Origin: Bacteroides sp.
GTDB lineage: Bacteria; Bacillota; Clostridia; Oscillospirales; Acutalibacteraceae
Length of the DNA: 64,000 nucleotides
NCBI GenBank assembly: GCA_023665085.1
Contig: JAMPEQ010000006.1
Coordinates: forward strand, 1 to 64,000
Reading direction: 5' to 3'
In this document: piece by piece, positions 37,090-41,062 of the stretch
How positions within the stretch are numbered: position 1 is the first letter of the stretch
Layout: each line of letters starts with the position of its first letter
Notes under the pieces: model-generated
What the model saw: only the letters and a program-made list of their open reading frames with translations
What the model was told of the DNA's origin: nothing
The model's database searches: none
Translations under genes and position numbers: made by a program

Positions 37090-37962
37090 CTACTTTTTTG
37101 TAGTAACAGCTTTAGCTTTGCTCCAATTACCATAAACAAAAGTTCCGTTTACCTTTTTGTAAGCTCTTATTCTAACATAATACTTTTTCTTAGCCTTAAG
37201 CTTTGAAATTGATTTTGATGTTGTTTTGCTGTTGCTGACAGTTATCGTTTTAGCATTTTGTGTGAATTTATTGTTTGTAGCATGCTGAATCTGATATCCT
37301 GTTATTCCTGTTACTTTAGCCCATTTTACTGTGATTTTTTTTGACGCAGGAGTAACTTTTTTGAGTGCTACTGCTTTAGGCTTTGCAGGAGTTGTAACAG
37401 CACTTGCAGCACTCCAATTACCATATACAGTACTGCTGTTTGCTGTTTTATAAGCTCTTATTCTTACATAATATTTTTTATTATCTTTCAGATTTGAAAT
37501 AGATTGTGATGTTGCTTTGCTTTTGCTGACAGTTATCGTTTTAGTATTTTGTGTGAATTTATTGTTTGTAGCATACTGAATTTGATATCCGGTTATTCCG
37601 TCAACGCTATTCCATTTTATTGTGAATTTTTTTGCCGCAGCAGTAACTGATTTCAGAGTAACTGTTTTTGGAACTGCAAGAGTTGTAACATAGCTTGCGG
37701 CACTCCATTCTCCATATTCAGTATTGCCGTTTACTGTTTTATAAGCTCTTATTCTTACATAATATTTTTTATTATTCTGCAGATTTGAGACTGAATTCGA
37801 TGTTGTGCTGTTATTGCTTACAGTTATTGTTTTTGCATTTTCTGTGAATTTATTGTTTGTAGCATATTGAATCTGATATCCTGTTATTCCTGTTGTTTTA
37901 GTCCATTTTACTGTGAAGCCTTTTGACAAAGGCGTAAGGGCAGGGGATTTTACTGCAGGAAC
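37090..37962 (-). repeat. Three tandem 291-bp repeats coding fibronectin III domains
   Basis: The segment starting gttatcgttttag (plus strand) recurs at 37241, 37532 and, slightly diverged, 37823: an exact 291-bp (97-codon) period. The copies are clearly homologous at DNA level and could expand or contract by recombination. Confidence 0.85.
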
Positions 37963-38994
37963 TATGATTTCTGTTGATTCAAGGTCTGAACAATTTCTCA
38001 TTCTTGCTCTGCTTGCTGTGAATATACATTCAGAGGTCATATTATACCTGATATTGAAAGCATTGGTCATATATTCCGGCTCTCTGTTGTGATTTTCAAA
38101 GTGAACAGGGCATTTAAGAAAATAGGAGTACTCGTAACCTCTATCATAATTGCTGTCATCCCATGTTGCATCAACGTTATAATATTTGCCGTCAATTTCA
38201 ACAATATTCCATGAATGATCTGTGCTTGTAATTATTTTATTATCAATACCTGCATCCTCAAGCATTCTGTAAAGAAGAGTTGAGTAACCCTGGCATACAG
38301 CTGATCCGTCAATCAAAGCACCATATGCTGTGAATTTTTTATAATCCTTTGAATTTGAATAATCATAGTTGCAAACTTTGCACACATAATCATAGATATT
38401 CTTTATCTTTTCATATGTGGTTAAGTTTTTTATATTCATACTGTCAAGTGCTTTATTTACTGCCTGTGTAACTTTGCTTTCCTGATTTGCAGTTGTATAA
38501 TAAGAAATATTAAAGGTAAAGCTGTAGCTGTAGATACCATTCGTAATTTCTGCAGTGCCTGAATAACGATATTCTTTATAATGCCAGGCAAGATAATCTC
38601 CTGCAGCAGATGAGTTTGCAAAATCCTTGCTGATAGCAAGTTTGAAAATTTCTGAAACAAGTGCAGCATAGTTCTGACTTGGACTATTAATGTTAATTGT
38701 AAATGTGCTTTTGCGAGCTACCATATTATCTCTTATTTTAGTAGCCGCTTCTTTCTTTTCTTTTGTGTCGGCAGTATTTTGATATTTTATTTCGTTAATA
38801 TAACTTCCGATTATTTCATTATCATTGAAACTATTACTGTTGTAAAGTGGGTTTGTATATGAACCCGAAAAACTGATTATTTCATTATTTGAGCTCTCGA
38901 ACGCATAAACAGCTGATTCCAAAGAACAAATTGAAATAATTATAACCAAAAGCATAGCAATGCTTTTTTTTAAATAACTAAAAAACTTTTTCAT
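37090..38994 (-). CDS. Secreted transglutaminase-like protein with three fibronectin type III domains
   Basis: 634 residues. A signal peptide (KKFFSYLKKS, hydrophobic core, likely cut after AVYA near residue 31) exports it. After an N-terminal region (about 32-190) comes a transglutaminase-like domain with the cysteine-protease triad C234 (SAVCQGYST), H260 (DHSWN) and D275 (NVDATWD). Three fibronectin-III domains of 97 residues each follow (about 346-440, 441-537, 538-634), lysine-rich toward the end. No LPXTG or other wall anchor is seen. Such proteins may cross-link or cleave wall or surface proteins; the substrate is unknown. AAGGAG lies about 10 nt before the ATG. Two c-di-GMP riboswitches precede it, implying c-di-GMP control of a surface function. 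Confidence 0.88.
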   Translation of the reverse strand: MKKFFSYLKKSIAMLLVIIISICSLESAVYAFESSNNEIISFSGSYTNPLYNSNSFNDNEIIGSYINEIKYQNTADTKEKKEAATKIRDNMVARKSTFTININSPSQNYAALVSEIFKLAISKDFANSSAAGDYLAWHYKEYRYSGTAEITNGIYSYSFTFNISYYTTANQESKVTQAVNKALDSMNIKNLTTYEKIKNIYDYVCKVCNYDYSNSKDYKKFTAYGALIDGSAVCQGYSTLLYRMLEDAGIDNKIITSTDHSWNIVEIDGKYYNVDATWDDSNYDRGYEYSYFLKCPVHFENHNREPEYMTNAFNIRYNMTSECIFTASRARMRNCSDLESTEIIVPAVKSPALTPLSKGFTVKWTKTTGITGYQIQYATNNKFTENAKTITVSNNSTTSNSVSNLQNNKKYYVRIRAYKTVNGNTEYGEWSAASYVTTLAVPKTVTLKSVTAAAKKFTIKWNSVDGITGYQIQYATNNKFTQNTKTITVSKSKATSQSISNLKDNKKYYVRIRAYKTANSSTVYGNWSAASAVTTPAKPKAVALKKVTPASKKITVKWAKVTGITGYQIQHATNNKFTQNAKTITVSNSKTTSKSISKLKAKKKYYVRIRAYKKVNGTFVYGNWSKAKAVTTKK

Positions 38995-39099
38995 TAAGAT
39001 TTACTCCTTGTGTTGCTTTCATTGTTGTTATAAACATTACTCCAAGAACGCCAATCTTTGTTTATCAGCTTTTAGTTTTTCAGACTTACGACATCTTAA

Positions 39100-39178
39100 A
39101 CGGCAACTGGCTGTCATATCCGTCAGGACTTAGACCCTTTAGCTTTGCGTCATCAATTTTCATTGATTTTGCTATTGG
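39100..39178 (-). ncRNA. c-di-GMP-I (GEMM) riboswitch, gene-proximal copy
   Basis: Minus strand shows the class I signature: AGCAAA, a P2 hairpin ATCAAT-GAAA-ATTGAT with GNRA tetraloop, the conserved GACGCAAAGCTA, AGGGTCTAAG, a variable P3 loop, and ATGACAGCCAGTTGCCG. The base before CAAA is G (position 20 in Vc2 numbering), predicting c-di-GMP rather than cGAMP. It ends about 106 nt before the start codon. TTAAGAT just after the aptamer (39099-39093) is complementary to ATCTTAA between ribosome site and start (39000-38994), a possible translational switch. Confidence 0.9.
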
Positions 39179-39254
39179 TGTTCTATAATGTTAAATAATT
39201 ATTTCTAATTTATTTTATGTATTATTTTTTTATTTGATATTTTATAAAGAAAAT

Positions 39255-39303
39255 AAAAAAACAGTCTATCCTCCTTTATGTGAATTCTAAAGGGGCTAAA
39301 CTG
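39255..39303 (-). terminator. Riboswitch-linked intrinsic terminator
   Basis: Minus-strand hairpin: CAGTTTA...CCTTTA pairs with TAAAGG...TAGACTG around a 9-nt loop, followed by seven T. It lies between the two riboswitches, about 46 nt after the distal aptamer. Its 5' arm (CCCTTTAG) is complementary over 8 nt to the aptamer core CTAAAGGG (39391-39384), which suggests an antiterminator. Confidence 0.8.
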
Positions 39304-39348
39304 CAGAATGATGCCTGATAAGGCAATATAATATTATGAAAACATCAC

Positions 39349-39428
39349 ACGGCAACTGGCTGTCATATCTGCTAAGACTTAGACCCTTTAGCTTTGCGTC
39401 ATCAACTTTCGTTGACTTTGCTATTAAC
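39349..39428 (-). ncRNA. c-di-GMP-I (GEMM) riboswitch, promoter-proximal copy
   Basis: Nearly the same sequence as the gene-proximal copy: AGCAAA, GTCAAC-GAAA-GTTGAT hairpin, GACGCAAAGCTA, AGGGTCTAAG, ATGACAGCCAGTTGCCG. Compensating changes in the P2 stem (A-T pairs replaced by G-T and C-G) support the structure. G at the ligand-selecting position again indicates c-di-GMP. It begins about 12 nt after the likely transcription start. Confidence 0.92.
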
Positions 39429-39446
39429 ATTATTTTCTTCACTTGT

Positions 39447-39475
39447 ATATTATCACAATCAATTTTAAATTGCAA
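39447..39475 (-). promoter_or_regulatory. Sigma-A promoter of the riboswitch-controlled gene
   Basis: Minus-strand TTGCAA (39475-39470), 17-bp spacer, TAATAT (39452-39447); predicted start near 39440. Confidence 0.75.
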
Positions 39476-39516: not shown

Positions 39517-39550
39517 AAAAAAAGAGCAGGGAAGACTCCCTGCTCTTTTT
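39517..39550 (-). terminator. Terminator of tRNA-Leu
   Basis: A 14-bp stem AAAAAGAGCAGGGA/TCCCTGCTCTTTTT with AGAC loop; its outer end abuts the tRNA CCA. T-runs on both strands. Confidence 0.88.
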
Positions 39551-39632
39551 GGTGCGCCTGACAGGACTTGAACCTGCACCCTCACGGATCGGTTCCTAAA
39601 ACCGACGTGTCTGCCTATTCCACCACAGGCGC
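39550..39632 (-). tRNA. tRNA-Leu (UAG)
   Basis: A minus-strand class II tRNA: acceptor GCGCCTG/CAGGCGC, anticodon stem TCGGT/ACCGA with loop TTTAGGA (anticodon TAG), short-paired variable arm, T-loop TTCAAGT, discriminator A, encoded CCA. Confidence 0.96.
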
Positions 39633-40131: not shown

Positions 40132-40176
40132 AACTATACCAATACCGAAATGTGTTTACACCTATGTAGCATCAGC

Positions 40177-40212
40177 GAAATCTAGCGCGTCTGCCAGTTA
40201 CGCCACAGGTGC
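40177..40212 (-). pseudogene. tRNA-Leu pseudogene (5' half only)
   Basis: Minus-strand GCACCTGTGGCGTAACTGGC followed by AGACGCGCTAGATTT matches the acceptor 5' strand, D-arm and anticodon 5' stem of a bacterial tRNA-Leu and aligns with the intact tRNA-Leu nearby (GCGCCTGTGG....GGCAGAC). It stops in the anticodon loop; the 3' half, T-arm and CCA are absent. Its promoter is still present upstream. Confidence 0.75.
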
Positions 40213-40219
40213 TTATATG

Positions 40220-40312: not shown

Positions 40313-40393
40313 GTATTTTTATATCTTTTTTTCATTACAAACATAGTATGAATTAGGTTGTTATAACCAATTTAATTGTAAGGAGAAATGTTT

Positions 40394-41062
40394 ATGAGTT
40401 GTTCAAAGCGAAATCTTAGAAATATGGATACAACCATTTATAGAGAAACAAGCAATTGCTGCGGCTGCGATGATTATTCTGCTGATGCCCAGTCTGATGA
40501 TATGTTTGTAAACAGCCTGTCAAATTATTCAAAACCTGTTTATCAAGTTACACGTCAGTACTCACGTCCTTGCTGTCCAGTATGCCCTCCAGTACCTCCA
40601 TTGTATCCTCCGATTCCACCAATTACACCGCCGGTCAATGTAAGTAATCCTACAACGGATTATGCGTTGTTTTACAGTACTCCTGCAACAGACGCAACTT
40701 ATGCAGCAGGAACAACAATTCCTGTCCCTACAACACTTTATAATACTGCAATAGATAGTATTTTAAATAATCCTGCAGGTACTATAATGCTTTTAGGCGG
40801 ACCAACCGGAAGAACTTTTCTTGTAAATTATCAGGTTAGCGGTACAAATAGCGGTACTACTCTTGGATTGAATGTTAATGGAACTGTTCCGGCAAATTCA
40901 TATGTAGCTGCGCTTGACGGTGCCTCAACAGTAAGCGGAAGATATATAGTTGATGTTCCTGCTAACTCGGCAACCAGCATTGCATTACAGGTCGTTGCCG
41001 GTACTCTTACCACTACAGCAGATACTGCATCTACAAATTTAAGTGTAGTAAGAATCAGATAA
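40394..41062 (+). CDS. Cys/Pro-rich surface protein with BclA/TNF-like C-terminal domain
   Basis: 222 residues. The N-terminus is cysteine-rich (CSKRN, NCCGCDD), then a proline run at about 60-82 (PCCPVCPPVPPLYPPIPP), then a Thr/Ser/Ala/Gly-rich beta domain (about 90-222: FYSTP, IPVPTTL, GRTFLVNYQVSG, ending TNLSVVRIR). This layout recalls exosporium/coat glycoproteins and TNF-like BclA C-terminal domains, but without collagen-like G-X-Y repeats. No signal peptide, as expected for a mother-cell-made spore-surface protein. AGGAG at 40381-40385 favours ATG 40394 over 40388. CATAGTAT at 40342 could be a sporulation-sigma -10, weakly supported. Function inferred. Confidence 0.65.
   Translation: MSCSKRNLRNMDTTIYRETSNCCGCDDYSADAQSDDMFVNSLSNYSKPVYQVTRQYSRPCCPVCPPVPPLYPPIPPITPPVNVSNPTTDYALFYSTPATDATYAAGTTIPVPTTLYNTAIDSILNNPAGTIMLLGGPTGRTFLVNYQVSGTNSGTTLGLNVNGTVPANSYVAALDGASTVSGRYIVDVPANSATSIALQVVAGTLTTTADTASTNLSVVRIR

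Follow-up and report, generated by a model that had tools for sequence, protein, structure and literature searches.

A tandem pair of A20 c-di-GMP-I riboswitches, with a predicted two-level OFF mechanism, upstream of a secreted transglutaminase gene

Two c-di-GMP-I (GEMM-I) aptamers lie in series upstream of a gene for a secreted transglutaminase-like protein, and the locus raises the question of which ligand the two units sense and at which step of gene expression each of them would act. It is found in a 64,000-nucleotide stretch of DNA (the window; contig JAMPEQ010000006.1 of assembly GCA_023665085.1, deposited as Bacteroides sp. and placed by GTDB in the Acutalibacteraceae). The window lies on contig C29 of a genome (G000) of 2.34 Mb in 32 contigs that is 99.9% complete.

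Two aptamers precede a secreted transglutaminase gene

We scanned the window with cmscan, which gave two RF01051 (c-di-GMP-I/GEMM-I) matches on the minus strand, in series upstream of the transglutaminase gene. Aptamer 1 (39348-39432) scored 74.5 bits (E 9e-13) and aptamer 2 (39099-39183) scored 72.6 bits (E 2.6e-12), against a gathering score of 35, and both match the model over its full length (positions 1-87 of 87). The GNRA loop on P2 is GAAA in both aptamers, and both contain the motifs GACGCAAAGCTA, AGGGTCTAAG and CAGCCAGTTGCCG on the minus strand. The equivalents of the pocket bases A47 (39395 in aptamer 1, 39146 in aptamer 2) and C92 (39352 and 39103) are present in both copies, and position 20 is occupied by A (39422 and 39173). 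These positions were assigned from the model position and from Bc1/Vc2 numbering, in which G11, A38 and C81 of Bc1 are G20, A47 and C92 (PMC11218506); Vc2 position 20 is model position 11, and its spacing to A47 of 27 nt matches Bc1. An earlier, sequence-only reading of this DNA had claimed the riboswitch class, the tandem order and the output gene, had named the motifs above, and had proposed the covariance scan as a check; these claims were borne out, and both copies scored above the threshold. It had also described the P2 differences between the copies as compensatory. This holds for one of the two differing P2 positions, a two-sided change of C-G to U-A, but not for the other, where G-U becomes A-U on one side only. 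P3b contains one more two-sided change, U-A to C-G. That the locus contains two real c-di-GMP-I aptamers in tandem is virtually certain.

Upstream of aptamer 1, we read from the sequence a candidate promoter, TTGCAA-17-TAATAT (39447-39475, minus strand), which has 8 of 12 consensus bases and falls below the threshold of the promoter scan. Further upstream lies a tRNA-Leu (39550-39632, minus strand), followed by its own terminator hairpin. A degenerate tRNA-like remnant at 40141-40215 resembles this tRNA-Leu and received no ARAGORN call. Downstream, ~105 bases separate the end of aptamer 2 from the start codon (38994-38992), which is preceded by the Shine-Dalgarno sequence AAGGAG (39004-39009, minus strand). 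The output gene (37090-38994, minus strand) encodes a 634-aa protein with a signal-peptide-like N-terminus, a Transglut_core domain (E 7.5e-9) and three fibronectin type III (fn3) domains, so that the Pfam scan agrees with the earlier description of the product as a secreted transglutaminase carrying three fibronectin domains. The Cys, His and Asp of the transglutaminase-like core are visible in AVCQGYS, TDHSWN and NVDATWD. On the plus strand, a 224-aa ORF (40388-41062) contains a proline-rich stretch and shows a weak match to the BclA C-terminal domain (24.9 bits, below the Pfam cut-off).

We gathered relatives by genome search and by the aptamer pattern; a DNA-pattern search of genome contigs with the transglutaminase gave no relatives. 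The same tandem precedes an orthologue (53% identical) in the MAG Eubacterium sp. HAN014 (G031, locus L166). Between the window and G031, the most conserved parts are aptamer 2 (90.6% identity) and the next 60 nt (87%), compared to 77.6% for aptamer 1, 67% for both the region between the aptamers and the coding DNA, and 44% for the 44 nt immediately upstream of the start. In Lachnoclostridium UBA1308 (L167), the order is aptamer, terminator, terminator-less aptamer and gene, without the GAACACCAAU-type pairing described below. A Clostridia MAG (L169) and Proteocatella sphenisci (L170) each contain a single A20 aptamer with a U-run close behind, then a transglutaminase-like secreted protein that was recognised by eye. 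A tree of the aptamers contained no well-supported branch, and thus we claim no duplication history.

The genome contains nine RF01051 aptamers, arranged as four doublets and one lone copy. One doublet (C22:248790-249098, L013) is an A20 tandem in which both units have terminators, situated before a SipW-type signal peptidase operon. This operon encodes a pair of SipW-like signal peptidases, together with small secreted proteins and a DUF285/leucine-rich repeat protein of 1147 aa, and resembles a TasA-type operon for surface fibres. The lone copy (C22:180032-180116, L012) is identical to aptamer 1 of this doublet, runs directly into a gene fragment similar to one of the genes in that operon, and is a truncated duplicate. 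Contig C28 (C28:60864-61941, L014) has two near-identical c-di-GMP-I doublets, ~776 bp apart, the first preceding a short ORF and the second the gene for a BspA-type leucine-rich repeat protein of 422 aa. Across the genus, RF01051 was found in 13 of 80 genomes and GGDEF in 23 of 80. No flagellin was found in the window genome, and the suggestion that the switch fits motile/sessile transitions is therefore left without support from flagella.

Predicted switching of the two units

An intrinsic terminator lies between the aptamers (39255-39304, minus strand), comprised of a hairpin (39304-39262) and seven U (39261-39255), with an energy of -16.6 kcal/mol and a z of -4.55 versus shuffles. In folding calculations its probability was 0.09 when unconstrained and 0.92 with aptamer 1 formed. 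Unconstrained folding paired the aptamer 1 strand CUAAAGGG..CUAAG to the 5' arm of the terminator, and this antiterminator, formed by CCCUUUAG (39287-39294, minus strand) and CUAAAGGG (39391-39384), had a probability of 1.00 at all sampled transcript lengths, from 148 to 168 nt. The duplex between aptamer 1 and its platform (-30.9, shuffle mean -19.6) was equalled by 2 of 500 shuffles. Pairing of the terminator 5' arm with the aptamer also appeared in five other platforms (G031, C28, C22 twice and G033), at 0.40-0.81 in transcripts truncated ahead of the 3' arm. The duplex energy was clearly beyond chance in the window alone, since 24 of 500 shuffles equalled it in C22_2 and 64 of 500 in G031, and the rest were ordinary. 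In G031 and G033, the terminator was formed in both states at equilibrium.

On this folding model, the CUAAAGGG..CUAAG strand would pair with the terminator 5' arm in the absence of ligand and allow read-through. Bound ligand would lead the aptamer to retain this strand, such that the terminator forms and transcription is turned OFF. An OFF sign is predicted because the terminator hairpin lies wholly downstream of the aptamer, with the aptamer in competition with that hairpin. Riboswitch 1 is probably an OFF terminator switch, and its predicted control of transcription termination, through a terminator and a competing antiterminator, is that of the first unit in a bi-mechanism tandem.

From aptamer 2 to the start codon we found no hairpin with a U-run, and hence no intrinsic terminator. 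The locus therefore has a terminator after aptamer 1 only, and not one for each aptamer as in a pseudo-cooperative tandem. The 5' strand of aptamer 2, GAACACCAAU (39174-39183, minus strand), pairs in P1 and J1/2 or, alternatively, with the platform segment AUUGGCGUUC (39046-39055, minus strand), which overlaps the anti-Shine-Dalgarno sequence UUCUUG (39048-39043). All three terminator-less second aptamers that were fully read in the genus (window, G031 and the paralogous array of C28) begin with GAACACCAAU, and its complement adjoins the anti-Shine-Dalgarno sequence in all three platforms, as AUUGGCGUUC or, in C28, as GGUUGGUAGUUC. The complementarity has p values of 0.010 (window), 0.013 (G031) and 0.001 (C28), compared to 0.12-0.98 for nine other aptamers, the pairing having been noticed in the folds before the statistics were run; the three are not independent cases, because the window and G031 are orthologous. 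Pairing of the 3' strand of aptamer 2 (GCCAGUU) with GAUUGGC was also considered as a switch and was dropped, with a folding probability of only 0.08-0.13.

When the alternative pairing was enforced, the Shine-Dalgarno sequence was unpaired with a probability of 0.38 in the window and 0.66 in G031, versus 0.04 and 0.05 with the aptamer and P1 enforced. For C28, the start region was unpaired at 0.83 with the alternative pairing versus 0.12 with the aptamer formed. Thus, accessibility of the start region falls when the aptamer is formed, from which ligand would be expected to hide it. The probability of the alternative pairing at full-length equilibrium was 0.00 in the window, 0.58 in G031 and 0.20 in C28. 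As regards the second unit of a bi-mechanism tandem, what we observe is a conserved competing pairing next to the anti-Shine-Dalgarno sequence that is not favoured at equilibrium in the window, and switching by riboswitch 2 would therefore need co-transcriptional folding.

We propose that riboswitch 2 would act on transcripts that escape riboswitch 1, most likely via translation. Without ligand, GAACACCAAU would pair with AUUGGCGUUC just upstream of the ribosome-binding site. With ligand, GAACACCAAU would be engaged in P1 and J1/2, and the freed AUUGGCGUUC segment would cover the Shine-Dalgarno sequence and stop translation. We give about an even chance to riboswitch 2 being a translational OFF switch. 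The pair as a whole may equally turn out, or fail to turn out, to be a two-level (transcription and translation) c-di-GMP OFF pair of natural A20 GEMM-I riboswitches, for which the ligand, the OFF sign and the translational step are predicted. On this model, c-di-GMP from the sole REC-HD-GYP-GGDEF protein of the genome would feed both riboswitches, and the pair would sharply shut off the secreted transglutaminase-fibronectin protein at high c-di-GMP. Of the steeper or two-input response put forward in the sequence-only reading, the steeper response is plausible, while two inputs are unlikely because both pockets share the key bases A20, A47 and C92.

Other accounts of the pair differ in what they assign to aptamer 2 and in the sign of the response. 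Riboswitch 2 may work without translational control, through RNA stability or Rho-dependent termination, or may mainly support riboswitch 1 in a simple pseudo-cooperative doublet. Such a role is possible though doubtful: the full window transcript at equilibrium hides the Shine-Dalgarno sequence in both states (0.04 unpaired), as this account would have it, but no untranslated part other than the aptamer is as well conserved as the platform after aptamer 2, and a segment competing with the aptamer adjoins the anti-Shine-Dalgarno sequence in three arrays. The existence of duplicated and truncated leaders in the genome (the lone copy at C22:180032 and the duplicated doublet of C28) lends some colour to aptamer 2 being a decaying, functionless duplicate. 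We regard this as highly improbable, given that aptamer 2 is more conserved between the species than aptamer 1 (91% vs 78%) and retains all pocket bases except for the shared A20. As to the sign, the Bc3-5 tandem of Bacillus thuringiensis is ON (PMC4759541), and the window pair might be expected to follow it. However, the Bc4 terminator takes up the 3' strand of its own aptamer, whereas the window hairpin is wholly downstream with the aptamer competing, which points to OFF and makes an ON pair improbable. The two-level OFF pair is the reading we carry forward.

Pocket base A20 and the ligand

Position 20 is A in both window aptamers and in all nine RF01051 aptamers of the genome. The G of c-di-GMP-selective aptamers is thus replaced by the A of GEMM-Ib, a base that marks cGAMP-responsive aptamers (PMC9481103). 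Within the genus, A20 occurs in the window genome, G031 and G033 (with C in a single copy of the latter), and the other genomes have G20. In other genera of the family, where the base was read at the covariance-model coordinates of each aptamer, A20 was found in 15 of 67 aptamers, and is thus a scattered natural variant. C or T at position 20 was observed in GEMM-I aptamers at L029 (1501-1583 of G033:C41), L123 and L124 (G089 and G267) and L102 (G274). The first P2 pair of the window aptamers is G21-C46, as in c-di-GMP aptamers, and differs from the C-G pair described for the cGAMP aptamer of PMC6274999, the one structure on which this comparison with GEMM-Ib is based.

We looked for a source of either ligand. 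The genome encodes one GGDEF protein, with REC, HD-GYP-like and GGDEF domains and the canonical Asp at the guanine-reading position. Hypr enzymes have Ser in place of this Asp. A Hypr-type Ser or Thr was found in 0 of 48 GGDEF domains, a set that includes part of the GGDEFs of nine A20-only genomes outside the genus and of G000, G031 and G033. No match to a CD-NTase (SMODS family) was obtained in the window genome, nor among 13 A20 genomes. Neither of the cGAMP synthases that would accompany GEMM-Ib, a Hypr GGDEF with Ser or a CD-NTase, was therefore found in the genome. The cyclase has His at the equivalent of PleD Arg300, a column assigned by counting and alignment; G033 shares this His, and Arg is found in G031, which has the same A20 tandem. 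This position is tied to substrate preference and is Arg in 94% of diguanylate cyclases, where the Arg favours guanine across the dimer (PMC6456294).

We consider c-di-GMP the likely physiological ligand, because the sole GGDEF protein is canonical, no CD-NTase was matched, A20 is scattered, 0 of 48 GGDEF domains are Hypr-like, and P2 opens with G21-C46. The A20 pocket may perhaps bind c-di-GMP with altered affinity. We dropped the inference of cGAMP from the A20 base by itself once the cyclase sequences and the CD-NTase search had been examined. It is unlikely, on balance, that the ligand of the A20 aptamers is 3',3'-cGAMP, alone or together with c-di-GMP, which would give this Bacillota lineage a regulon of cGAMP or mixed type. 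This account would explain the cGAMP-recognition base in all nine aptamers (PMC9481103), and the His of the sole cyclase at so conserved an Arg position is in keeping with it. Nevertheless, the cyclase retains the Asp that Hypr enzymes replace, the A20 tandem of G031 is accompanied by Arg at 300, the 13 A20 genomes gave no SMODS-family CD-NTase, the opening G21-C46 pair differs from the C-G pair of the cGAMP aptamer (PMC6274999), and binding of c-di-GMP by cGAMP riboswitches, through a protonated adenine, has been reported (PMC9262584). The fuller version, in which the whole regulon of nine A20 aptamers runs on cGAMP or a c-di-GMP/cGAMP mix made by the His-for-Arg, Asp-keeping REC-HD-GYP-GGDEF protein or by an unknown synthase, is more improbable still. 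We therefore retain c-di-GMP as the ligand of the proposed pair.

Relation to known tandem riboswitches

The arrangement of a c-di-GMP-I doublet before a transglutaminase gene is already known. Doublets of this class are common (347 doublets and 12 triplets; PMC9481103), and tandem c-di-GMP-I riboswitches before COG1305 transglutaminase genes are catalogued as enriched in Bacillota in the accessible part of PMC12452182. These share the riboswitch class, doublet, gene family and phylum with the window; that part of the source is a statistical catalogue and gives neither expression platforms nor the pocket base. The best-studied c-di-GMP-I tandem, the triple Bc3-5 of Bacillus thuringiensis, likewise lines up complete riboswitches of this class ahead of genes for surface proteins, but its units are all transcriptional and ON, whereas the first window unit is predicted to be OFF and the second is terminator-less (PMC4759541).

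Doublets that combine transcriptional with translational control have been described for SAM classes (PMC9481103). In the bi-mechanism SAM-II/SAM-V tandem, the first unit terminates transcription and the second acts at the ribosome-binding site in response to one ligand, similar to our reading of the window, although that tandem mixes aptamer classes and both window units are c-di-GMP-I (PMC9481103). Bc1 combines transcriptional and translational regulation in one leader, as we propose here, but does so with a single aptamer, a long platform and two terminators (PMC11218506). Class I c-di-GMP riboswitches of C. difficile are OFF by transcription termination, as predicted for riboswitch 1, and the accessible part of PMC11477304 describes them as transcriptional, without a two-level doublet. 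The Geobacter GEMM-Ib cGAMP riboswitches share A at position 20 with the window, whereas the first P2 pair is G-C in the window and its genome has no Hypr cyclase (PMC6456294, PMC8835794). We found no literature case of a mixed transcription-translation c-di-GMP-I doublet, in a search that covered the primary literature incompletely. Beyond what is known, the locus adds an A20 pocket in a genome where no known cGAMP synthase was found, and a predicted two-level OFF mechanism that can be tested.

If the two-level reading is true, a c-di-GMP-I doublet would block first the transcription and then the translation of one gene, an architecture listed in PMC9481103 for SAM classes only. If instead the regulon runs on cGAMP, or on a c-di-GMP/cGAMP mixture, Bacillota would have riboswitch-based cGAMP signalling although no known synthase of cGAMP is present. 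The genome has one cyclase, lacks any known synthase of cGAMP and carries nine A20 aptamers that include four doublets; it provides a small system in which to study what A20 GEMM-I aptamers outside Geobacter sense. Since A20 occurs in 15 of the 67 family aptamers, the answer affects how riboswitches annotated as c-di-GMP-I are to be read.
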